Shown here: positions 3,615 to 59,145 of the stretch, piece after piece
How the letters are laid out: each line of letters starts with the position of its first letter
Position numbering within the stretch: position 1 is the first letter of the stretch
Assembly (NCBI RefSeq): GCF_964355755.1
Contig: NC_092673.1
Span: 22,511,001 to 22,575,000 of the forward strand
Direction: 5' to 3'
DNA length: 64,000 bases
From: Antedon mediterranea
Lineage: Eukaryota; Echinodermata; Crinoidea; Comatulida; Antedonidae
Notes under the pieces: generated by a model
Seen by the model: only the letters and a program-made list of their open reading frames with translations
Told to the model about the DNA's origin: nothing
Databases searched by the model: none
Position numbers and translations under genes: made by a program

Positions 3615-3985
3615 ATGTGCCATGTATTTATTCGGTTTCGATCCAACTCGGCCCTAAACCGTCTCGGCCAAAGTCAAGTCGGCCCCACGTCAAGTCGGCC
3701 CCAAGTCAACTCGGCCCCACGTCACCTCGGCCCCACATCAACTCGGCCCCACGTCAACTCGGCCTCAAGTCAACTCGGCCAAAAACTAATCCGGCAACTC
3801 GGCCTCTAAAAACTATGAAACGCAAAAAGTGCTAATATAGTAGTTAATATTATAATGGCAGAATATAGTACGGTTATGCCTACATAATAGACGAAATACA
3901 ACGTAAAATTCAATATAAATGATTATATAATATTAATTGATAGGTAGTATTTATTTATATTGTTTGAAACAAACAAATATTTCTT
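3615..3985. repeat. Inverted-repeat arm carrying a 15-16 bp GGCCGAGTTGAC-type minisatellite (left copy)
   Basis: The first part (3645-3800) is a tandem array of ACTCGGCCCCACGTCA-like units. It is followed by a unique-looking flank up to about 3985. The whole block recurs in reverse orientation at 5300-5720, including the same edge sequences, for example AGTGCTAATATAGTAGTT and ATAATAGACGAAATA. The array and its flank therefore moved or duplicated together. Short frames in this block that read Ser-Arg-Pro repeats are translations of the satellite, not genes. Confidence 0.85.
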
Positions 3986-5299: not shown

Positions 5300-5720
5300 C
5301 TGAGACAAACCAACCAACAATATAAATAAAAATTACCTATCAATTAAACGAAAAACGATCAGCCAGTGTGTTATAATTTACATTGAAATTTCCGTTTTAT
5401 TTCGTCTATTATATAGGCCTAACCGTACATGCCATTGTAATAAATGAACTACTATATTAGCACTTTTTGCATTCCATACTTTTTAAAGGCCGAGTTGACG
5501 GATTAGTTTTTGGCCGAGTTGACTTTAGGCCGAGTTGACTTGAGGCCGAGTTGACGTGAGGCCGAATTGACTTGAGGCCGAGTTGACTTGAGGCCGACTT
5601 GACTTGGGGCCGACTTGACTTGGGGCCGACTTGACTTGGGGCCGACTTGACGTGGGGCCGACTTGACTTTGGCCGAGACGGTTTAGGGCCGAGTTGACCT
5701 GCACCCATTTATTCTCCCCA
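5300..5720. repeat. Inverted-repeat arm with GGCCGAGTTGAC minisatellite (right copy)
   Basis: Reverse-oriented partner of 3615-3985. The satellite occupies about 5490-5700 with units such as GGCCGAGTTGACTTGA and GGCCGACTTGACTTGG. The flank at 5340-5480 matches the left arm with scattered mismatches and small indels. The array here is longer than in the left copy. Confidence 0.85.
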
Positions 5721-44118: not shown

Positions 44119-47100
44119 ATGGCCAGTTTACGGGGCTGTATATTTGGTCCTAAATTGTATAGAATACACGCCGGTGCTGTCTCATCTCGGGTATGTTGCT
44201 AACAAATTGTATTGAGTAATAAAGACCTTGTCCGCCTAGGCTAGGCCTAGCTACCTAGTAGGTAGCTTTTATATACTACGGCAATCCTAGCCTTGGCCCT
44301 AGTCGATCCTGCAGAGGGGAAATGTAGTACAGCCTAGGCTATACGACGCTAGTTCCATTTCGCACCTGTCTTTTATCTGGACTCCAAATTCTAAGTAACC
44401 TTAGAATTAGGCTTCACAATTTAATTAGGCCTGGCCTAGCCTAGGCCTAGGGCCTAGTACTTTCGGCGCTAATGCAGTTTCGTACCCACCCCTTAAAATT
44501 ACTCAAAATCTTCATCCAACCTACTCACGAGTTGTCTACAGCATTCTGCAATCATAAAATTGTAAAAAATCGAAATTTTTTTATTTAAAACTATTTTTAA
44601 TCAATTAATACTGAGCACCCTTCGGAAATACATCGCCAGCTTAGCTTCGCGAAAATCATCGCTAGGCCTGCCGATAAAAGTACGGAGGCCTCACAGGACA
44701 TTAACTCTATTAATAGAGTAAACAGTTGCGTTCTATAGAGGGCGTAGTTACTAACGTTTAAAGCACGCACCAAATCTATATATAAATTTACGTAAGGGCA
44801 AAAATCGGTAAATCGTGCGTTATTTCTAGAATGTTTACTCGATGGTATATAAAGTTGGTTCGTACTTTCGGTACTAATTTTAACCACCTGATGTAACCCT
44901 GTTTACTAATTAAATTGAGTTCGATAATTAGTTATTGACGATTAGAACGAATTTAGGTTCAACGATTTGCCCCAAATAGGGGTGTTTTCCGATTGTGGTA
45001 TACACTGTCTAATGGATGTCAATTTAAAAAATACCCGCACACAATAATACGAGGACACTTCGCATTTTCCTATCTCCTCCTACAATAATTTTTTTTAATA
45101 GCTGAAAACCGGTTGAACAGTTCGAGTACAGCATCATAATGTTGAAGACAGGCCGTTTTTCTTTAAAAAATGCTATCTTGATACATGTAATATACGTTTT
45201 TACAAATGTATTGATTTGTGATGAATGGAACATTCCAAATTATTTGGTTTAACCATAGAGGTATAGATTTAGATTTATGGGCCCCCTTGGAGAATAAACA
45301 TAAATAGTATTGCAATGCACTTTTGATCGCAATTTGAATCGCAAATTTCTTACTGTGAGTGTTGGTACTGTTAGATATAATATAAACAAATATACAAATA
45401 AACTTTATTACTGTGAGTGTGGGTAGGTCCTACTGTTAGATTATAAACATATAATATACAAATAAATAAACGTTATTACTGACAGTTGCTTCTCAACGTT
45501 TGTATTAATTAATAATTTAAAAATATATAAACGTACGTAGTGGTGTATCGTTACATGTACTTTACTATTTCAATCGACTATGACAGTGAGAGTTTTAACA
45601 AAGTATTAAATCGTAAATGTTTTACTGTATTTAGTGGTATATTATTTATAGGCCTATAAAACATTAAAAACAATATTTCGTTACTGAGTGGATAAGAATA
45701 TATTTTAAAATGTTTCCTCTTTGTACCTATCTTCTTCCCCCATCCCTCAACCCTTAATGTTACATACAAAACACAAATTGGGTTTGTTTAAATGAGTCCA
45801 AATAAAAAAATTTGACTCATTTTGTTTCTCTCTCGGAAGTAATTCCCAGGGTGCTAATTTTAGCTGACTACATAAATCATCGTGTATATTTATTCGTTTC
45901 TGTAAAACGACAATGTATTATAGTCCTGCAGTACGTACATTTGAAATCTCCATTTTTTTCTCGCTTGAAAATACTGTGTATTCGAGAACCATCTGTCGGG
46001 GCACGACCTAGATGGTACGCGAGCGAATCTCCATTTTTTTCTCGCTGGAAAATACTGTGTATTCGAGAACCATCTGTGGGCACGACCTAGATGGTACGCG
46101 AGCGAAGCGAGCGTGCCATCTAGTAATTATAATTTTCATTATTTCCGACATGCGTTTCGTATTTTTAATAAAGAAAAGAAATACTATACAATTGCTGTAT
46201 TCATCATTGTGGGTATCATCATAATTATGTTATGTTTTTAATTTGTTCTTTCATTTTACTATTAGAATTTCACACAGAAAAGAAGATAATAAATATGGAA
46301 CTGCTGACTCTTGAAGATATAAGTACTACTGACCAATTTTCCTCTGTTTTAGTTTATTTTACATTATGGTTTGTAGGTCAAATAAATAAATGAAATGAAT
46401 AAAAAGAATTACAGTACTTCATTCCTGAGTTACATTGTTAATGTTATAACACAATAATCAAGCTATGACGAATTAATTGTTTTAGTATTTGTTATCACTA
46501 GCTATACTAGAAACGCTAATGGTTTCCCTGTTTTAAGATTTTATAGAAGTATATTAATATTAATTAACATTTTTTATGTTTTTAATTTGTTCTTACATGG
46601 AAATAGGAAATGCAACAAAAACAGAAAGATATAATTTATTGAAATGTAATGTACAGTAATACAATAATTATAATAAAAATGTTTTCCATCAATTACTAGA
46701 ATTTATTTTACTTCTGCTGACACTGAATACATCATTTCATGTCTTTCATAACTTCTTTTTTATCTTCTTTCCTGTTGTGTTTATTAAAATAAAATCAAAT
46801 AAAACATTAAATAATGAAGCAACTATTCATTAATTTATTTCAACAATATTTTATGAGGGTGGTCCATCCAGCCGAAGCTGATCATTAGGGACCCTTACAA
46901 AAAATATAATTTGACAAGACAATAACACACAATATTCAAAATAAATAGAATTTCTAAAAATTAACAACATAATTAAACACAAAATATTTCTTTATGAAAA
47001 AAACTTAAAATCCGTTTCACGAGGAACATGTAAAAAATATTTTATTATCGCCATAATATGATCATAACAGCGTCCTCTATAGATCGATGCCCTATGAGGC

Positions 47101-50100
47101 CTCCGTACTTTCATCGGCAGGCCTAGCGATGATTTTCGCGCAGGCCTAGCGATGATTTTCACGAAGCTAAGCTGGCGATGGATTTCTGAAGGGTGCTCAA
47201 TTATTAATTGATTAAAAATAATTATAAATAAGAAATTATCGATATTTTACCATTTTATGCTTGCTGAATGCTGTAGACAACTCGTGAGTAGGCTAGATGA
47301 AGTATTGAAATCATTTTGAGTAATTTTAAGGGGTGGGTACGAAACTGCATTAGCGCCGTACTTTCTTTGCATAAAAAAAATTATCATTTCTGTGAATATA
47401 ATCTAAACAACTTTTTTACTAGGAGGGATATGACTATGTTCCAACATTTACAGAGAGACAAGCAGATAACATTATAACATGGGTAAGAGATTAAGAAAGT
47501 AAATTTCATATTTAATCCTCAATACATTACCATATTACTGTACGAATGAATTGAAACAACAACTGAAAAAAAACCAATACATACAATTGTGTTCATCATT
47601 TTCTACATTTTTACTACAATTTGACATATCAACAGCCATTGTCCAATGTGCATCATACCTTATGAATACACCTGTTTTTCAAAATGTGACTTACCTTCAG
47701 GTGACCATGACATCCATTTTGATGCACTGTGGCCATGTTGTTTATGATATGGTGAGTGGTAAAGTGACGAACATTGACCCACCACATTGTTCATTGACGT
47801 GACGTACCATCTAGATTTTTGACATACAATTGACAAGTGCATTATATACTATAGTGCCTCAAAGCTCCTAAAGCTTCACATTATTATTACCCCGGTCTTT
47901 GGATGAAACACATATGGACAGCTCCCATGATTATGTGGCTAGTACAGTAATAAGAGGAAAGCATTGACCCCTCCCAATACCCATCAAATTAATACTGCAC
48001 TTAAAATATTTTTTTTTTTAGATGAAAGTTTGTTGGTCTGTCATGAAGTACACCTCTCCATTTTCACTTACATATTTATATAGAAATGGTAATAGATTTT
48101 CTTTATTAAATGTTAAATGTTCTTTCAAAAATGTATTCACTTATGTAGAAAAAAAAAAATCATTTTAATTATAAAAAGACAAACGATTAATTTTAACCAA
48201 AAACTCATTGTCTGACAGACAAGTATTTTTTGCTTTAATATTAACAATTACATTTTTTTGCAGGTAAATCTTTTTTTTTTTATCCAGTTTTTGGTCAAAG
48301 TGAATAACTATTTATGTGACATTAAAATGAAATATTAAAACAAAAATAATGTTTAGGGGAACAATATATCTTTAAAATAAAATTAGAAAATATTTAAAAT
48401 GCTCTGTCAGCCAGATCAAGGTATATCACAATATAAAAGAAGGAAAAATGTATTTATATTTTTATATATTTTATATTTTATGTATTTTTATATTACATAG
48501 CCTATGTAAATACGCTAACGTGATTGGTTGAAACTGCATCACATGACTATGTCATTAAACATATAGATTCTCGAGTACGATGATATTGCCTGTGTAATTT
48601 TCGTGTGCCAACACTCGCGTTGCCGATAAATAAACAAAAGTAATCTACTCGATCTTGAACTCGGGTGGAATTGTCACTCCATCGGAAGACAACGCTTCAA
48701 CCGCTGCGCCACTGAACTTGCTCGACGAAATTAATCTTCTAAACTATTTAAGCTATGCATACATAGCGCCCTCATTTGTTATTAGTCCATCCTAAATGTG
48801 ATGAAACACCGTTTGTGATTGGTCAATACTCACGGTGTAGTAACCTAGTAACTAGTACGCGCTGAACATCCGGTGATTCAGCTCCTCGAAGAGAAGTTAA
48901 GAAGACGAATTATTTATTCGGCCTACCTGATTATAATATTATTATTAATAGGCTTATTGATGGAAATTCTTCTGTTAATTTAAACGACCTAGGCCTAAGT
49001 GAATATTTTATTGCCAAGGAATCATTAATTAGTAATTATCTGTATATTATTCTTCGCAAGGTAAGGTGTCTAGTTAGGCTTGTTTAAATACAATACAAAG
49101 GAGGCCTAGCCTAGCTTCACCCAACCCAGCAGACTTGTTCTTGGCTATATAATATAACAGATATTGCCTTTTATATCGGTTAAATATAAGATTTGACATC
49201 CCCTCGGGAATGATATTAAGTTCTCGGGGAATATATATTTCCCTCAGCTGGCGCTTCGGGAAATATATATTCCCTGGAACTTAATATCATTCCCTCGGGG
49301 ATGTCAAATCTTATATTTAACCTCTAAGCAGTCAATATCTGTATAATATTTCTTATCCTTTCTTTTCTAGGATACTTCACAATAGCTGGATTGATCAGCT
49401 GTGGACACTGTACTGGAATTGCCTTGGTTATTTTAATGGGATCGATAATTATGAGAGGTAAATTTGAACAAACTTTCAGGATTTTTTCAGTTTTGTTGTT
49501 AATAACAACACAACTGATAAAAACAAAAACCTGAAGGTAGATTGTCTAGTCCGGTTTGTCTTCCTTCTATAGACAATGTCAAATGCTGCTATACCATTAT
49601 CATTTATTAGAAATTTTTAATAAATTATCTATATTATGCATTCTTGATACAACGCAAAATGTTAAAATGTATCCAAAATTAATTACATTTGTTTCTTACT
49701 GACCTCATACCGTATTCGTAAAAAATGAATACACTTTTTGATATGAAGCAGGGATCAGTTCAAAAGTTTAAAAAATGTAATACAGCCATCTGTTACAAAA
49801 CCAGACTTTTCTGGAAATACCCAAATCCTTTTTTTTATCATTAAAAGACATTCTGAATACCAAGCAAAAACCAGATATATTAGGCCTGCCCAAACGTGCC
49901 TGGTATTGGGATAGCTGACTGTACATAACCTTTTCAATGTTCATAAGATTGAAAAGTCTCCCTATTAATACTTGTTTTCCGAAATGGTGAATAAAGTAAA
50001 TCATCATCAAACTATTACAGGTAGTGGAGACTTCAATGATATTTACTATTATTGTTACTGTCATCATGAGATAACATATTCTAATACATTCATTAAAGAT

Positions 50101-53100
50101 GTATTGACCCTTTGTCAAATTCCAAAAAAATAAAAATAAAAAGATTTCGAAAAAAAGTGGGTCATTTTGAAGTATTATAATAGTTATTAACATTCACCAA
50201 AAAATAGTCGAAAAAAAAATCATTTAACTGAAATACAGACGTTTTTTGGTTCAAAAAATAACTTTGACTTCCAGTCAAAGTTTTTGATCAAAACATATCT
50301 CATAATGCAATGCGCATATTTGGCTACTCTGTATGCATAATCATAAAACTTCCACGCGATCTGTGTGAAAACACATTCTCAACCGTGACAAGTTGTAAAC
50401 AATCCTAATTAGCATCATGCATAATGTATACTCATGGTTTGAAATCTTTGTTTACTTTGTTTTCCAGACGAAATGTAATCAAATTAATGTATCTATTAAT
50501 TACGTAAAATTGTTGTTTTTGTCTCGAATATTCGACTTAAAGTGAATAACTTTAATATTACTTTGATATGGCCAATTAAAATTTAGTATATTTTGACCTT
50601 CATTTTTTTGTGTTTCAAGGGACAATACATCTTTAACATTTTCTTATCTATTGTGCAGGTATTGGACGATCGATGAATCCAGACTATACAAACTTTCTTA
50701 AGTTTTTGCACACTGCTAGAAACAGTGATTTGTATGAAGTAAGGGTATGTATGCAATTGTTCATTTTAAGTTTAAGGTCATTATGTATCAAAGTAACATT
50801 TTTACTTGTAAATCACTTTGTTTTATTGGTCACAGTTTCAGTATAAAGTCCTCTCTACACTATCATATTTTATGTGACAAAAAAGCAATGTGCCCCTATA
50901 TATCATATCACTACTATATATTTGGGCATATCACTACCATATTTGGGCACATCACACTTTTTTCTGTCAAACTAGTTTGATAGTGAAGGCATAGCTTTAA
51001 ACCTGAATCTATTTGTGTATCTTTACAGCATAGGTTGCAATATTTTGATAGTGTAGACAGAGCTTTAAACCTGAATCTATTTGTGTATCTTTACAGCATA
51101 GGTTGCAATATTTTGATAGTGTAGACAGAGCTTTAAACCTGAATCTATTTGTGTATCTTTACAGCATAGGTTGCAATATTTTGATAGTGTAGACAGAGCT
51201 TTAAACCTGAATCTATTTGTGTATCTTTACAGCATAGGTTGCAATATTTTGATAGTGTAGACATAGCTTTAAACCTGAATCTATTTGTGTATCTTTACAG
51301 CATAGGTTGCAATATTTTGATAGTGTAGACAGAGCTTTAAACCTGAATCTATTTGTGTATCTTTACAGCATAGGTTGCAATATTTTGATAGTGTAGACAG
51401 AGCTTTAAACCTGAATCTATTTGTGTATCTTTACAGCATAGGTTGCAATATTTTGATTATGAGTTTACTCATTGGCAGGAAGACTTTGTTGCCAATACAG
51501 ATAAACCGTGAGTACTGTATATAATACCAAATATGGACATAATGATAAATATGGACATTTTATTATCAAATATGACTCATTGTGATCATATATGGGCATA
51601 TAATCACAACATATGGAAACATAATGATAAAATATTGGCATATTAAAATGAAATGACACAATATGGGCACATAATGAACAAGTATGGATATATTATGATC
51701 ATATATGGGCAATAATGACAAAATATAGCACGCATATCTTGGCCACATAAAAGTCTATAATCTGAATCAACAATATCACTTTTTTGTTCTTAGATAAAAT
51801 AATATGTTTAGTTTGTTTATGCTTTTTAACTAAAATGTTATTAATTTTTTTATGATACTTATAATTTTTGCTAAACTTTTTTTGTAGGCCTTTGCGAGTG
51901 AGTCTACGCACAGCAAATAAACCCAAAACTTTACTAAGTAGAATAGTACAATTTCCATGTGATGTAATAAGTTACTGTCTCATCAACACGTTTGGAAGGT
52001 GGCTTGTCTACCCAGGTCACACAGCACTACTTAACGCAGCTGTTGGTTAGTATCATATCCTGATGACAACCCTCTTAGGACAACCCCAAGAGAACAGGCA
52101 GCCTAAGATTACTGTTAGAAAACTACCTCTAAGGAGATTATGTGGGTAGTTACTTTGTTTGGTAGTTGCCTTGTCTATTTCATGCCTAGCTTACCTGGAT
52201 AAACGACAATAGCCCGGTGGTTCGTTCCCACACAAGGGCATGGTTGCATTATGGTACAGGGGTGTTCTAGGAACTTTCTACTTTCGTATCTAAGCCCTCC
52301 CTCTGGAGAGCATGGGCTATTGTCTGTTTATCCAGGTAAGCTAGCACTCATAGACTATTAACACCACTATTGGTTGGTGTAGTTGCCCTGTTGGGTAGTT
52401 GCCCTGTTTTGTAGCTGCCCTTTTGGGTAGTTGCCTGTTTGGTTAGCTGCCCTGTTTGGTAGCTGCCCTGTTTGATAGTTGCCCTGTTTGGTAGCTGCCA
52501 TGTTTTGGTAGTTGCCCTGTTAGGTAATGTAGTTGCCCGGTTTTGGTAGTTGCCCTGTTTGGCAGTTGCCCTGTTTGGTAGTTGCCCTGTTTGGTAGTTG
52601 CTCTTTTTGGTAGTTGCTCTTTTTGGTAGTGCCTTTTTGTTTGTGTCTTTCGATAAAAAATTCCTTTTTTTTAGTACACAAGAGGTGATTTCCCAATTCT
52701 GAGTGATTAGCGATTTTTATAAATACTGGTGGTATGTAATGAGTGAATACATACATACATTATATTGACAATGCTAAAGCTAGCTAATCATTCTGTGCCA
52801 TTTTAGGACCATCACTTCTAGAGGGAAGGAAGAAGCTATTGGAGAAAGACAATGGCATTCGAGCCAAGCTGATAACAAGAGATAATAATCAGATTGACAC
52901 CATGTTTATAGATGCACGAGGAGTGGCACATTCAAATGGGGATAAATTGGTAAGATTGTTTAGGATGGACACATTTTTTTAAATTTTTTTAATTTTTATT
53001 TTATATATTTAGGCAAATTGCCAAGGATAACCATAAGCAAATTCAATCACTATCCTTCTTAAAGGTGGCAATCCGTTCACGAGACAAACATACACACAAT

Positions 53101-56100
53101 GCTCTACATAAACAAAGTCTTTATTACAAGTCTTTGGGAGTGGAGTTGTAAATTGTCATTAGAAAAAATCCTGACATATGACAGGACTTGAACCCAGGAC
53201 CCTTGGATTGGCAGCCAAGCATCATAACCACCAGGCCACAACTCCACTCCAATCCATCCTTCTCCTAAAAGGAAATCTGTATTATATAGAATGTTAATTC
53301 TTATTTATTTAAATTCTTGTTTTAATAATATACTGGACATGCAAGGATGTAATATTATTACTATGCTTGTATGGGCGTTATATTAAGGCCCTCCTCAAAG
53401 CCTAATTTCAACACATCACCCAGGCCACTCATGATACTGTTGTTCCCACCAACCCTTAACTTCCTTGCTCCCATTATCTACACTTCTATAATGTCTCCGG
53501 ATTTGATTTGATCTTGATTTTGATCAATCTCACTACCACTGCAGACTTATTTATTTTTAAATACAAAATGGGAATTTGATTAGGAATATGATGTTAGTTT
53601 GATTTCAAGTTTACATAAATAAACTTTTTTTTTATACCAGGTTATATGTTGTGAAGGCAATGCAGGCTATTATGAAGTGGGATGCATGCCTGCACCTTTA
53701 GAATGTAAGCAACTTCTTAACAATACTTTTTTTTAAAGATAGTATTACTTAAAGTAATATGGTCTTCAGCTGCTTGTCTGCAAATTCTACTTAGTATTTT
53801 AGTAATTAGTAGGGACTATGTAGATGCACAAACGAATGGAATTTCTCTTATGGATTTATTAAATAAAGAAGTGAAATTATATTTGTGAGCATTATATTTT
53901 AAAACATTGAAAATATAGGAAATCAATATTGCTGAATAGTTTGCAGTACACCATGTATATAGTTCTAAAAGAACTGTTAATATTGTTCGACGATTTAATC
54001 CATATACTTTGATCGTCCCCAAAAGTGAGAATGAAACAGTTTGTTTCCAATAAAATTTCAATTTTAAAATCATACTCAATAATTGTTATTTTACTAAATC
54101 ATTTAACAACATTTATTTTTAGCAAAGTATTCAATTTTGGGTTGGAACCATCCAGGCTTTGGAGGCAGTACAGTAAGAATATTTGTTTTATATTTGATAT
54201 TCAGAAATAATGTGAGCACACATCCATGACTTCTCAACATTATTGAGCAAGTTTGTGACCAAAAAGTTTATGGCAGAAGTGCTATAAACCATGTCTGCTT
54301 CATTAACAAGGGTTTAGGGCCAATTCACTCTATGGTTGTTGTGGTAAAACAATTCTTCTCAGGGCTGTAGCTCCAGTGTACTATATTTGTGTGTATGTCC
54401 AGCATAGTGTCAAGTAAAGTAAATGCAATCTGATCCTGATCCTATTTTATGTAGTTATGCATTTGTGGCCAAGGATTACAAATAGTAAATTAATCACTGT
54501 CCTATCATTAAAAATCATCATTTTAAATATCAACTGCTACAATTCTGTTGATACACGGAGAAATCTCAATGGTTGAACTGTGTGTTTGATGTAGGAGGAT
54601 ATACTAAAGAAAAGAAATATAGATATGTAGCACCCTCTAGTGTTTGAGGGGTAATAGGTAATAGGAACCATTATTTTTCCAGCAATGAATGTACTAATAA
54701 ATATCAGACAGGGCATAAAATGTATTTTAACAATTTTAAAATTGTATTAATTCTTTTTAATTTGATTACTAAACCCCTAACTATTATCATTTCTTCCATG
54801 CCATGTTTCCGTTTCTTTCAGGGTTATCCGTTTCCAGAAAATGAGGCAAATGCCATAGAGGTAGTGATGCAGTATGCAACTACAGAGCTAGGATTTCATA
54901 TATCAGATATCATTGTGTACGCTTGGTCTATTGGAGGCTATACAGCTTCAATAGCTGCTATGAACTATCCTAAAATACATGCATTAGTAAGTTGGTTGGT
55001 ACAGTAGTACTTTTGTTGAAAATATTTAATTATTTTAGGTCAAGAGGCCAATATCAATATCTCAGGCTAAACATTGTTGTTTGGCTGGAGCAATATTTTA
55101 AAAGAGTGCATACACCCTGAACAATGTATTTTAGTTTTGTTAACAAAACCTTCAATCCTTGCATGTACAGCACTGTCATTCACCACTTTGACTACTTGTT
55201 GCATGGTTTCTTAAGCTCGGTCTACACTATCAAAAAAGTGTGATATGCCCAAATATGGTAGTGATATGCCCAAATATGGTACTGATATGAAATCATCGTG
55301 TCCATATATGGGCACATCACATTTTATTGTTGCATAAACTTTGATAGTGTAGACAGAGATTGAGAAATTTTATATCTATATGATTGTTTTAAAAGAATTA
55401 TTGTATATAATGTATTCAAATATGATTTATATTTTTAGATTTTGGATGCTACATTCGATGACCTTGTTCCGCTGGCTACAGCCAAAATGCCACAATTTGC
55501 ACGTAAGTATACTCCTTTTTATATTGCCTAGGAAAACATAGATAGTCGGTTTACGCAACTGACATCCCTTTCGATTGTACGATTCACTAGAGGGCAGTCT
55601 TTTATATTAAACATTGCTTTCGTAAGTCTTAATACAAAAAACACATAACATAATGATGTGGGGGATATTTTCACGGTTAGGGATTGATCATTTTAGGAAT
55701 ATGGTTGTTTTTTTAATTTTGTTTTAATTTCTCAGGGCAAAAATTGGAACTATATAGTTGCTATATATTTTGTTATGTTGTATTTTGCTGTTGTATTTTG
55801 TTTCTACAGGTGGCATAATCATTAGAACACTAAGGAATTACATGAACCTTCAAATCTCTGATAATGTATGCAGGTAAAACATTTTCATAAATCTACATAG
55901 TGTGTGCACTATTACTGTACTACAGTACTGATAATAATAAATTTCAGTAGTGCGATATATTTGACTGTTAATTAAATAAATCTGCAGTTTGAACAATAAA
56001 CCTACAAAAGACTAACCTGGGATTTTTCATATAGTGTGCATACCATTAAATTTCTGTAAACCTATTGTATGGAAAATAAATGAATTTATAATAATAAATT

Positions 56101-59100
56101 ACACAGACAAAATCTAAAAACAGATTAACCTATTAAAATAAGGTTAATTTTAAATGTTTTGTTTATTTTATATTTCGTTCCTAAATTGAATGCAATTATT
56201 AGTAGTTTTGTATCTCGATTTGGACGAATGATTTTAATCAAACAAGTTTATTTGTACTATTTTTTGTGCTTTTATTATAAAGTTTTATACTTAAGATCTG
56301 TCTATTTACATTGATAATAATTGTCTTTTTAAGGTATCCAGGTCCAATCAAACTAATTAGGAGAACTCAGGATGAAGTGATTACAACAAGGTATGTCCTG
56401 CCATTTGAATAAAAAGTTACATGAGAAAAAATTAAATGTAAAGATGTATTGTCCTGGCCCCCAAAAACATGAATAATGAAGATTAATTAAATCCGACTTT
56501 GAATGGGTTATTTTGTAGTTAAAAGTTAATCACTTTCGTGGGAAAAAAAATGAAAAAAAAAATGTTTTAACTAATAAAATGACAAAATAAATGGGTAAAT
56601 TCAACCAAAAACCCACTGGCTGGTAGCCAATTTGACTATTTTTTTGCTTTTAATTACTGTTTTTCATGTAAATCATTTTTTTTTCAATCCTATTTTTGTT
56701 TAAAGTGAATAGCTATTATGTGACAGTAAAATGGCATATTAATTATTTTTTCAGGGGGGACAATACACCTTTAACATATTGACTGGGTTTATAAGTATAC
56801 TAATTTAATTTTCAAACCAAGAAATTCACAATGTGATGAGGCCTCGTTCAACAACAACATTTACAATTTACCATAAACTCCTCTCAAAGATTGGAATAGG
56901 AACAATGTAAGTTTTAATTTTTCAGTTTAGTACCAAATGTTCAGTCCAACAGAGGGAATAATCTACTAATTGCAATACTTAAATACAGGTGAGTACTTTG
57001 GACTTTTCTTTATTCAATTTGATTAATCTAAAGCTATGTCTACACTATAAAACTACTACTACTATAAAAAAATTTGATGTGCCCAAATATGGTAGTGATA
57101 TGCCCAAATATGGTAGTGATATGCCCAAATATGGTAGTGATATGCCCAAATATTGTAGTGTTATGACATCATCATGCCCATGGGAACATCACATTTTTGT
57201 CACATAAAGTTTGATAGAGCTGTACAAATCCACTATTACAATTTAGTCCAGTCTTGTGTCTTGGAAGGTTTAGTTGTCTTCTGGGGTTGTAGCATGACAA
57301 GGTATCTCAACTTTATTTCCTTTTTTTAAACACATGGTGCATCGCAAACGTAACTTTCCAAATGTAGTGTTTAATTTCCTTGCAAATCTTTAGACAATAT
57401 TATATTAAAAAAGTGACTATTATAAAGTACACGGTCATCATTGAACATTTAAAAAACCATTGTTTTGTTGTTCTTCTTTCAGATATCCTAACCTTCTAGA
57501 CGAGGAAAGTTGTGCTGTTCTAAATCGTTTTCTCAGCGCTGAATCTGTAATCGACAAACGTATGTTGCTACTTGCTATTAGGATGTTTTCTTTCATACAT
57601 CGATATGTATTCTCATCTGCTTTGTATGCTTTCTAACATAACATCTGTACATTCTCATTTACATAGTATTCTTCTCTTAGAAAAAAACATGTCTGACAAA
57701 ACTCTAATAGTAATACTATGCCATACATAATCAAGTTATTATTTTCATACATCGATACATATTTATTTTGATGTTGTATAAGTGAAAACATTTTTGTTTT
57801 CCTTTTTTTCTATGGAACAGATTTAGAAAATAACATATTCAAAGTCGGAATTAGTTAATCTTTTCATGTTTTTGAAGAATAATACATCTTTAAGTTTTAA
57901 TACTAATTTCCACTTTTTTCAGTTAATGTGCTAACAGAGTATGAAGTAGAAGACTCTGCTTGCACCAGGGACCTTCAACGATATGCTGTAGACAACTCAC
58001 CTCTGTACCCAATGATGATTGGTATGTCATTTTAATATTATAAAAATTATTTGCATTATGACTCGATACTGAGCAAGTGAGTGGCCAAGCAGTTAAGGCA
58101 GTGAGACCGTAATTACGTCGTAGCCATAACATCGGCAAGGATTCAAGGCTCACTCGCTCGATGATTTTGGTGGTAGAACGGTTCTTCTCAGATAAGGACT
58201 ATAAACCCTAGGTCCAGTGTACACATCTAGCTCATAAACCTAGTACGTCTTTCGAGATTAGTAGAAGGTTACCCCGGTATACTATTACATCACAGCCATT
58301 AATCATAACTGGGCCCTCCGGGAGACCAGTCTTAGACTGAAGAGGTCGCCAAGTATAAATGAAATAGTTCGATTCAATATAAATTAGTTTTAATGACATT
58401 GCAATTATGTTCTTAAAGTGTGCTTATGTCGACACAGAAATGGAAGCAACTCGACTGTATCTTTTTGAGCAGCTTAGCTCCCTCAAAATAATCATAGAGA
58501 ATATTTAATGCATCTAATATTTTAAGAATTTTCATAAACATATACACACAGTTACAATGTAAGAATCCTTTTTGTTTTAGGAACTGATTTGAGAGAAGTA
58601 ACTAAAATACAGTTGACTCTATTTCTGGTAAGATCTGGCTTTAGTTTTCAAAGTTATGATATTGAATATAAGGAAACCTATTCAAAAAATGTATTATTGC
58701 TAGAATGGGCAATTTGGCAATGGACGATTTTTAAAATCTGGTTGCTAAAGCTAACACCTGTATTGCAAGTATATGCAAAATTGTGTTATGCTCCAATGCT
58801 TCTTATTAGCAATCTAGACTACGCACCTTTCCGCATACTCATTATGTTTCTGAGCATGTGTAGAAAGATTTTTAGTCAAGTGTTTCTTTCTGAAAATGAA
58901 CGGTTGCTATTATTGGAAGTAGACATTGCGGATTTTCTAATGATTTAATTTACTTTTGAATTATTCTGACGAAATGGATAAGTGAGAGTGCCATCGGAAA
59001 TAAATATTATTTTGGATACTTTTTCTTTATTAACAAATCTTACTTCTTTAACTTGTAGGCTAGTAAGTATATGGTCGACTTTGAAGCAATGCACTGCAAG

Positions 59101-59145
59101 CCACTTCCAAATAGCTACTTTGAAATGCCCTGGCAACTTGAATGA
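44119..59145 (+). CDS. ABHD16A: ABHD16A, phosphatidylserine lipase family, complete (19 exons)
   Basis: Exons: 44119-44190, 47423-47482, 48022-48088, 49371-49457, 50659-50744, 51437-51507, 51888-52045, 52807-52949, 53641-53704, 54123-54172, 54822-54986, 55439-55502, 55810-55873, 56334-56390, 56926-56988, 57483-57559, 57923-58021, 58581-58627, 59059-59145. All phases agree; 526 residues against about 558 in human. It starts MASLRGCIFGPKLYRIHAG, has hydrophobic segments at about residues 50-96, then the alpha/beta-hydrolase core. Nucleophile Ser322 lies in YAWSIGGYTA; Asp397 lies in RRTQDEVITT; the C-terminus is FEMPWQLE. Asn474 occupies the position of the expected catalytic His (human His507; Ser, Asp and His positions all keep an offset of 33). 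In mammals the enzyme sits in the ER membrane and makes lysophosphatidylserine. The array at 51001-51436 multiplies the exon 6 acceptor. Confidence 0.97.
44765..44975. repeat. Dispersed repeat, partner of 22495-22690
   Basis: It holds TTTACTCGATGGTATATAAA, GTTCGTACTTTCGGTACT, CCACCTGATGTAACCCTGTT and GAACGAATTTAGGTTCAACG, all found in reverse orientation in the PDZ-gene intron. The minus-strand frame at 44597-44887 lies across repeats and is not a gene. Confidence 0.8.
45943..46125. repeat. Two-copy tandem duplication ending in a CGAGCGAAGCGAGCG palindrome
   Basis: Two copies of about 78 bp, each with CTCCATTTTTTTCTCGCT, TGTGTATTCGAGAACCATCT and CACGACCTAGATGGTACGCG. The second runs into CGAGCGAAGCGAGCG and then GTGCCATCTAG, so the last 40 bp form a hairpin (CTAGATGGTACGCGAGC with GCGAGCGTGCCATCTAG). 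Probably the end of a small inverted-repeat element. Confidence 0.8.
48640..48725 (-). mobile_element. tRNA-like SINE head, diverged
   Basis: The minus strand reads TTCAGTGGCGCAGCGGTTGA, an A-box-like start, then GGAGTGACAATTCC and CCCGAGTTCAAGATCG, a weak B box. It does not fold into a canonical tRNA and is called as a SINE fragment. It lies in ABHD16A intron 3. Confidence 0.45.
49159..49340. repeat. Long near-perfect hairpin element
   Basis: Inverted arms of about 65 bp meet at 49248: GATTTGACATCCCCTCGGGA, ATGATATTAAGTTC and GGGAATATATATTTCCC on the left are mirrored on the right. A short outer pair, AGATATTG and CAATATCT, closes the element. It ends 30 bp before ABHD16A exon 4. It would form a stable hairpin in the pre-mRNA. 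Confidence 0.9.
50093..50636. mobile_element. Non-autonomous DNA element (TTAAAGATGTATTGTCCC family), 544-bp copy
   Basis: Colinear with 35389-35942 and in the same orientation. It ends GGGACAATACATCTTTAA only 22 bp before ABHD16A exon 5, so the polypyrimidine tract and branch region of that acceptor lie at the element's edge. The minus-strand frame at 49768-50193 partly reads this element. Confidence 0.9.
50845..51000. mobile_element. MITE (CTCTGTCTACACTATCAAA family), copy 5
   Basis: The left end is AAGTCCTCTCTACACTATCA; the right end is TTTGATAGTGAAGGCATAGC, inverted. The interior contains two ATATTTGGGCACATCAC-like segments. Its right end abuts the 68-bp tandem array and is part of the array unit. 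Confidence 0.85.
51001..51475 (+). repeat. 68-bp tandem array, seven copies, containing the exon 6 splice acceptor of ABHD16A
   Basis: Copies start at 51001, 51069, 51137, 51205, 51273, 51341 and 51409, an exact 68-bp period; I noticed only one base change between units (ACATAGC for ACAGAGC). Each unit is ACCTGAATCTATTTGTGTAT, CTTTACAG, the first 20 bases of exon 6 (CATAGGTTGCAATATTTTGA), then the MITE end TAGTGTAGACAGAGC. The seventh copy continues into the real exon. Confidence 0.97.
51525..51735. repeat. Degenerate array of ATATGGGCATAATGA-like units
   Basis: About nine imperfect units of 20-25 bp (AAATATGGACATAATGAT, ATATATGGGCATATAATC and others) in ABHD16A intron 6. Minus-strand frames across it are translations of the repeat. 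Confidence 0.75.
52186..52345. mobile_element. MITE (CCTAGCTTACCTGGATAAAC family), full copy
   Basis: The left end CCTAGCTTACCTGGATAAAC and the right end GTTTATCCAGGTAAGCTAG are inverted and extend inwards to ACAATAGCCC / GGGCTATTGT. The interior has TTCTACTTTCGTATCTAAGC as in the fragments at 16176 and 24957. It lies in intron 7 of ABHD16A. Confidence 0.9.
52378..52632. repeat. GTAGTTGCCCTGTTTG minisatellite
   Basis: About thirteen copies of a 17-19 bp unit alternating GTAGTTGCCCTGTTTG and GTAGCTGCCCTGTTTG, degenerating to GTAGTTGCTCTTTTTG on the right. ABHD16A intron 7. Confidence 0.92.
53005..53255 (-). mobile_element. tRNA-derived SINE, well preserved head
   Basis: On the minus strand the 5' end has an A-box-like TGGCCTGGTGG and a B box GGTTCAAGTCC that fits GGTTCRANNCC. 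The body has CTCCACTCCCAAAGACTTGT and GGATAGTGATTGAATTTGCT, and the tail is AT-rich. Relatives: 15110-15340, 23515-23645. It lies in intron 8 of ABHD16A. Confidence 0.8.
55212..55360. mobile_element. MITE (CTCTGTCTACACTATCAAA family), copy 6
   Basis: Ends TTAAGCTCGGTCTACACTAT and TTTGATAGTGTAGACAGAG are inverted. The interior repeats GCCCAAATATGGTAGTGATAT twice. ABHD16A intron 11. Confidence 0.9.
56438..56774. mobile_element. Short TTAAAGATGTATTGTCCC-family element, 337 bp
   Basis: Ends GTAAAGATGTATTGTCC and GGACAATACACCTTTAA are inverted. The interior differs from the 550-bp form except for weak ACCAAAAACCCACTGGC and AAAGTGAATAGCTATTATGT words shared with 48140-48385. ABHD16A intron 14. Confidence 0.85.
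57030..57220. mobile_element. MITE (CTCTGTCTACACTATCAAA family), copy 7, with internal 21-bp repeats
   Basis: The left end AAGCTATGTCTACACTATAA and the right end ACATAAAGTTTGATAGAGCT are inverted. Inside, a 21-bp unit (GATATGCCCAAATATGGTAGT) is repeated four times, which explains the regular short frame seen there. ABHD16A intron 15. Confidence 0.88.
58078..58340 (+). mobile_element. tRNA-Leu/Ser-like SINE (second family)
   Basis: GAGTGGCCAAGCAGTTAAGG is a good A-box region of Leu/Ser tRNA type; GCAAGGATTCAAGGCTCAC is a weaker B box. The body contains TCTCAGATAAGGACTATAAA and CCTAGGTCCAGTGTACAC, also found at 41997-42245 and partly near 54340-54400. It is too diverged to be a working tRNA gene. 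ABHD16A intron 17. Confidence 0.65.
58628..58948 (+). other. Possible retained-intron C-terminus of ABHD16A
   Basis: Reading through the exon 18 donor keeps the frame open for about 106 more codons to a TAA at 58946-58948, followed by AATAAA at about 58996. The translation is hydrophobic (WAIWQWTIFKIWLLKL). A transcript that keeps this intron would replace the conserved last 28 residues. It may be chance. Confidence 0.3.

Follow-up and report, generated by a model that had tools for sequence, protein, structure and literature searches.

Results

The ABHD16A gene

The DNA analysed here, a stretch of 64 kb (the window), contains an intact gene on the forward strand, whose features are listed in Table 1. 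In the gene model built from the window, the introns are GT-AG and the exons form one open frame of 526 aa. Pfam detects ABHD16_N (PF22990, 4.6e-35, residues 4-133) and, after it, an alpha/beta hydrolase domain (Abhydrolase_1, PF00561, 3.1e-12, residues 248-395) in the protein. We take the gene to be ABHD16A rather than ABHD16B, judging from its many exons and from what is known of ABHD16A. Exon 2 (47423-47482, in phase) was placed by local alignment with a short segment of human ABHD16A as the query. The internal exons are 47-165 nt long and the introns 307-3831 nt. The exon that carries the repeat described below is exon 6, as it had been numbered in the original prediction from this DNA. 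Genome matches to ABHD16A all fall on this locus, exon by exon (354-Mb assembly, 18 contigs), so no second gene copy or retrocopy was found in the assembly at the sensitivity of the search.

Table 1. Features of the ABHD16A locus (window positions)
Feature	Position	Strand	Remarks
ABHD16A gene	44119..59145	+	19 coding exons, 526 aa, intact; gene model and Pfam
MITE, putatively PIF/Harbinger-like, in intron 5	50846..50996	+	left TIR ~50846-50865; right TIR 50976-50996 = first 21 bp of unit 1
Seven tandem 68-bp units	50976..51451	+	MITE end (21 bp), intron (32 bp), start of exon 6 (15 bp)
Extra exon 6 sequence predicted with acceptor 1	51029..51436	+	six units, 408 nt
Extra 68 nt predicted with acceptor 6	51369..51436	+	frameshift, stop 14 nt into exon 7
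Authentic acceptor CTTTACAG, seventh and last	51429..51436	+	sole copy joining the 526-aa reading frame
Exon 6 proper	51437..51507	+	length 71 nt; entry phase 0, exit phase 2; donor GTGAGT
TTTGAT in exon 6	51452..51457	+	microhomology with MITE end (50976-50981)

A minisatellite across the intron 5/exon 6 boundary

TRF on the window reports an array of period 68 with 7.1 copies and 98% matches at 50976-51457, and its score of 936 is the highest of all TRF arrays in the window. This array is a minisatellite that spans the boundary of intron 5 and exon 6, and it is present at one place in the assembly. Seven near-identical tandem copies of a 68-bp unit had been predicted in front of exon 6; TRF and a unit-by-unit comparison bear this out, with the start of the array moved from 51001 to 50976. 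The exon part of the unit had been given as 20 bases; it measures 15 bp (CATAGGTTGCAATAT), and 21 bp with the shared TTTGAT included. The composition of the unit, i.e., MITE end, intron, acceptor and exon, had been read correctly, whereas the border between MITE and intron had not: about 11 bp that were called intron belong to the MITE, because the MITE end runs to ...GTAGACAGAGCT. The remaining intron part is composed of an AG-free stretch, a tract and the AG.

The acceptor CTTTACAG occurs seven times at a spacing of 68 bases, ending at 51028, 51096, 51164, 51232, 51300, 51368 and 51436. The 3' splice site is complete and identical in 7/7 units, so all six decoy AGs are still in place. Each site scores 9.1 bits, a value that is rough in absolute terms because the splice-site matrices were built from ABHD16A alone (17-18 sites). 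Units 2, 3, 4, 6 and 7 are identical to one another; unit 5 departs from them at one base (G17T) and unit 1 at three (T11A, A14G and G17T). The inner units are thus homogenised and the boundary unit 1 has diverged, with three differences versus one in total across units 2-7. All four differences lie inside the 21-bp MITE part of the unit. This placement departs mildly from evenness (0.009 for four independent changes, 0.03 for three) and may be a chance effect.

The probability that such an array arose by chance is negligible. Comparable arrays are frequent in the genome: those with at least five units and a period of 30-150 bp make up 1.4% of sixteen 8-kb stretches taken at fixed positions (128 kb in all) and 2.3% of the window, the ABHD16A array itself included. 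Since tandem arrays can be miscounted, and a misassembled array of the comparable lancelet type (a mirage, see Discussion) was reported in a draft genome (PMC3087553), the true locus might hold one or few units. We regard such an assembly artefact as very unlikely, because the assembly is chromosome-scale, the array is only 476 bp long, and units 1 and 5 can be told apart from the others by their bases.

The MITE end and a probable origin of the array

Inverted ends and a TTA/TAA target duplication are characters of PIF/Harbinger MITEs. For the MITE family in intron 5, the TIR consensus AGCTCTGTCTACACTATCAAA and the target duplication TWA were derived from other copies of the family; several of these, among them L046, L012 and the copy at window 42776, have TTA or TAA on either side. 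From the TIR and the TWA duplication, the family is classed as PIF/Harbinger-like; the target duplication is not clean at the ABHD16A copy. This copy has a decayed left TIR, and the right TIR in unit 1 has three differences from the consensus. Units 2-7 match the consensus TIR, save one base in unit 5. The MITE end within the unit is TTTGATAGTGTAGACAGAGCT (21 bp), and exact matches to the 19-bp MITE end number at least 12,758 genome-wide (6414 + 6344). Further copies of the same family are found at window 42776, 55215 and 57034. The latter two lie within ABHD16A introns and hold 2-4 tandem 21-bp subrepeats (GTGATATGCCCAAATATGGTA).

The sequence upstream of unit 1 is MITE interior, that upstream of units 2-7 is exon sequence, and TTTGAT is common to both at the point of the switch. 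The predicted junction at this shared TTTGAT is upheld; given the base composition, a random breakpoint would show a match of at least 6 bp with a probability of about 0.002. Taken together with the differences among the units, the junction suggests the following route of formation. The MITE would have been inserted 32 bp upstream of the exon 6 acceptor. A tandem duplication guided by microhomology would then have linked the exon to the MITE end via the shared TTTGAT, and the copy number would have risen to seven by slippage or unequal exchange. The inner units would have been homogenised, and the outermost unit 1 would have drifted.

It is conceivable that array formation is actively promoted by the MITE family at its own ends, for instance by transposase cuts, and that ABHD16A is one of many such places. 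Two other arrays have units composed of a MITE end and neighbouring DNA: a 42-bp unit at C1:410894-412382 (locus L043, C1:410500-412900) and a 92-bp unit at C1:1406561-1410626 (locus L044, C1:1406100-1411200). However, of 189 independent MITE ends, only four have a tandem copy no more than 150 bp away, two of the four in long arrays, against a background array share of 1.4-2.3%. The 189 ends are samples from three exact-match listings, hand-counted with ABHD16A excluded, and the two shares come from small samples that are not strictly comparable. Because tandem MITE ends are not above background in this small sample, seeding as a general mechanism was rejected as unproven and is very improbable here; the MITE was more likely a bystander that supplied the microhomology than the cause of the array. 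In the L043 array, ten bases of the unit (GGTTGAGCAG) are absent from the flank after the array.

Reading frames and predicted products of the decoy acceptors

Use of acceptor 7 gives an exon 6 of 71 nt and the complete protein, and no other acceptor gives the normal protein, as had been predicted. Acceptor 6 would give an exon of 139 nt and, as also anticipated, a shifted frame; its product of 174 aa keeps the ABHD16_N match in Pfam and lacks the hydrolase domain. Acceptors 1-5 would give exons of 207-479 nt, and the prediction that they read into TAG is correct: the stop lies in the next unit after 31 exon-6 codons, so that the product is 155 aa. With acceptors 1 and 4 the added length is divisible by 3, yet translation would still run into this TAG. 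Skipping of exon 6 would break the frame and leave 134 aa.

In every predicted decoy product the stop precedes the last junction by 1037-1434 nt. By the usual rule, messages with stops that far upstream are substrates of nonsense-mediated decay (NMD), so the decoy products are predicted to be of the NMD type. The best donor-like site in the unit has 0.6 bits, versus 5.7-10.9 bits for ABHD16A's own donors. As the unit has no credible donor, the decoys can only lengthen exon 6. The formation of a second exon or a new intron by the units was rejected for the same reason.

Discussion

The array in ABHD16A is a further case of a known kind, distinguished by its copy number, the near-identity of its units and the transposon end in them; the original prediction overstated its novelty, since arrays of this kind have already been described in lancelets as mirages. 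Mirages are repeats across exon-intron boundaries and, as cited in PMC3087553, were named in lancelet Adh3 (Canestro et al. 2002). Later examples are the globin genes BflGb6 and BflGb9, TnC and PGBD5 (PMC3087553, PMC3902484). Like the ABHD16A array, they consist of head-to-tail minisatellite-like units that span an intron-exon boundary and carry splice signals. In BflGb6 the 3' end of the intron and the 5' part of the exon are repeated in 6 or 3 units depending on the haplotype (PMC3087553). Its inner units are homogenised and the boundary unit is excluded, as in ABHD16A, and RT-PCR suggests regular splicing (PMC3087553). Splice sites are duplicated without aberrant mRNA in the Adh3, globin and TnC mirages (PMC3087553, PMC3902484). 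Mirage units are 10-72 bp in Adh3 and 81-100% identical in BflGb6 (PMC3087553, PMC3902484), whereas those of ABHD16A are near-identical and include a MITE end. Regular splicing is backed by RT-PCR in the lancelet mirages and is a prediction in ABHD16A.

In humans, the variant c.844_845ins68 (844ins68) of CBS is a duplication that takes in 52 bp of intron along with 16 bp of exon (PMC7490669). As in ABHD16A, the acceptor and the first exon bases are duplicated, and the agreement in length (52 + 16 = 68 versus 53 + 15 = 68) is presumably a coincidence. The normal CBS mRNA comes from the acceptor nearer the exon body: the more distal, exon-side site is strongly favoured (PMC2630376, which calls the site a donor; the Romano paper that it cites concerns the 3' splice site), and the other transcript was found only as nuclear traces (PMC1334203). 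The entry for Romano 2010 in the reference list of PMC7490669 links suppression of the upstream site to G runs. CBS has two copies and no transposon end, against seven copies in ABHD16A, and the CBS G runs are absent from the ABHD16A array, in which no GGG was found.

The human ABCA7 intron 18 VNTR is a polymorphic repeat of a 25-bp unit that overlaps a donor, with about 24 copies in the reference (PMC5954066). Its length correlates with altered splicing, and mis-splicing is appreciable (PMC5954066). As in ABHD16A, a multi-copy repeat overlaps a splice site and frameshifted, NMD-prone products are possible; the ABCA7 VNTR is on the donor side and has measured effects on splicing, whereas the ABHD16A array is on the acceptor side. 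Tandem duplication of gene segments with splice signals is also seen in intron gain by tandem genomic duplication, which needs AGGT proto-splice sites that yield a new donor and acceptor (PMC4974935, PMC3443670). The ABHD16A unit differs from this in having no usable donor.

How is exon 6 spliced in the presence of seven acceptors? We consider it probable that the array is a young boundary minisatellite in an intact, single-place ABHD16A gene, that splicing mostly uses the last acceptor and that the decoys are nearly neutral. The six upstream acceptors would be decoys, each with a whole 3' splice site and without a 5' splice site. The last acceptor, beside the exon body and the real donor, would take most of the splicing and yield the normal protein, and any use of a decoy would be a minor leakage into messages fit for NMD. 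Because ABHD16A is intact over 526 aa, with its domains and at one place, productive splicing probably persists. Short exons and long introns are the layout of exon definition, which favours an acceptor close to the donor. Acceptors that give an exon of 71 or 139 nt would therefore be favoured over those that give 207-479 nt; the exon of acceptor 6 is within the normal exon size range, so exon definition does not speak against this acceptor.

Nothing local marks acceptor 7, because the seven acceptors share their local sequence and score. Structural hiding of the decoys was rejected, since the predicted accessibility of the acceptor, 0.39-0.42, is equal in all seven units. Given the short-exon layout and the lack of a local or accessibility difference, mainly normal splicing with some decay products is expected. 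Choice of the last acceptor with a near-neutral effect is the most likely outcome by this analysis; the identity of the acceptors, the lack of GGG and the appreciable mis-splicing at the ABCA7 VNTR are counterweights to it.

A rival idea is that the decoy array lowers or tunes the output of ABHD16A, with substantial use of acceptors 1-6, NMD of the products and expression set by copy number. The acceptors score alike, 6/6 decoy AGs are retained, every decoy product would have its stop over 1,000 nt ahead of the final junction, and the length of the ABCA7 VNTR alters splicing and expression and yields NMD products (PMC5954066). However, lancelet mirages and CBS are spliced mainly in the normal way, and intact decoys are equally expected of an array that is merely young. 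The original prediction that the array could tune splicing or trigger decay is upheld only as a possibility; tuning as the main role seems to us rather unlikely.

A more specific form of control would be a switch by RNA pairing, in which base pairing between the single left MITE arm and any one of seven right arms selects the acceptor. Dscam docking and selector sites are the model for such pairing-based choice. The predicted duplex energies are -25.5 kcal/mol for units 2, 3, 4, 6 and 7, -22.8 for unit 5 and -17.2 for unit 1. However, the predicted ensemble has no preference for unit 7, acceptor accessibility is the same throughout, and such a hairpin would be formed by any MITE with intact arms. 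We therefore give hardly any credence to this switch, and equally little to a docking-selector set in the pre-mRNA that picks the acceptor while the copy number fixes what fraction of the ABHD16A transcripts is degraded.

The locus is a clean natural test of spliceosome choice: the branch region, tract and first exon bases are shared by all seven acceptors, so that position is their only difference, and junction counts at them would directly read the effects of position and exon definition. ABHD16A and its transposon-derived unit join a small published set of boundary-spanning minisatellites. If the host is not a lancelet, the known range of these minisatellites would be widened. Such loci also call for caution in gene annotation and variant calling.

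Other repeats in the window

An array of a 16-bp unit (GTAGTTGCCCTGTTTG, ~15 copies) lies in ABHD16A intron 7 at window 52379-52630, so the boundary array is not the only minisatellite in ABHD16A. At the start of intron 6 (51528-51726) there are degenerate 20-bp repeats (ATATGGGCACATAATGA-like), which resemble the 21-bp subrepeats within the MITE. A direct duplicate of an 81-bp segment, with 96% matches, is found at 45945-46106. Elsewhere in the window, a minisatellite with a 61-bp unit has ~13 copies at 1839-2620. Two 16-bp arrays (GTCAACTCGGCCCCAC and GGCCGAGTTGACTTGA) are located at 3644-3780 and 5512-5677, ~1.8 kb apart; their units are near reverse complements, and the paired arrays could be the ends of a mobile element.
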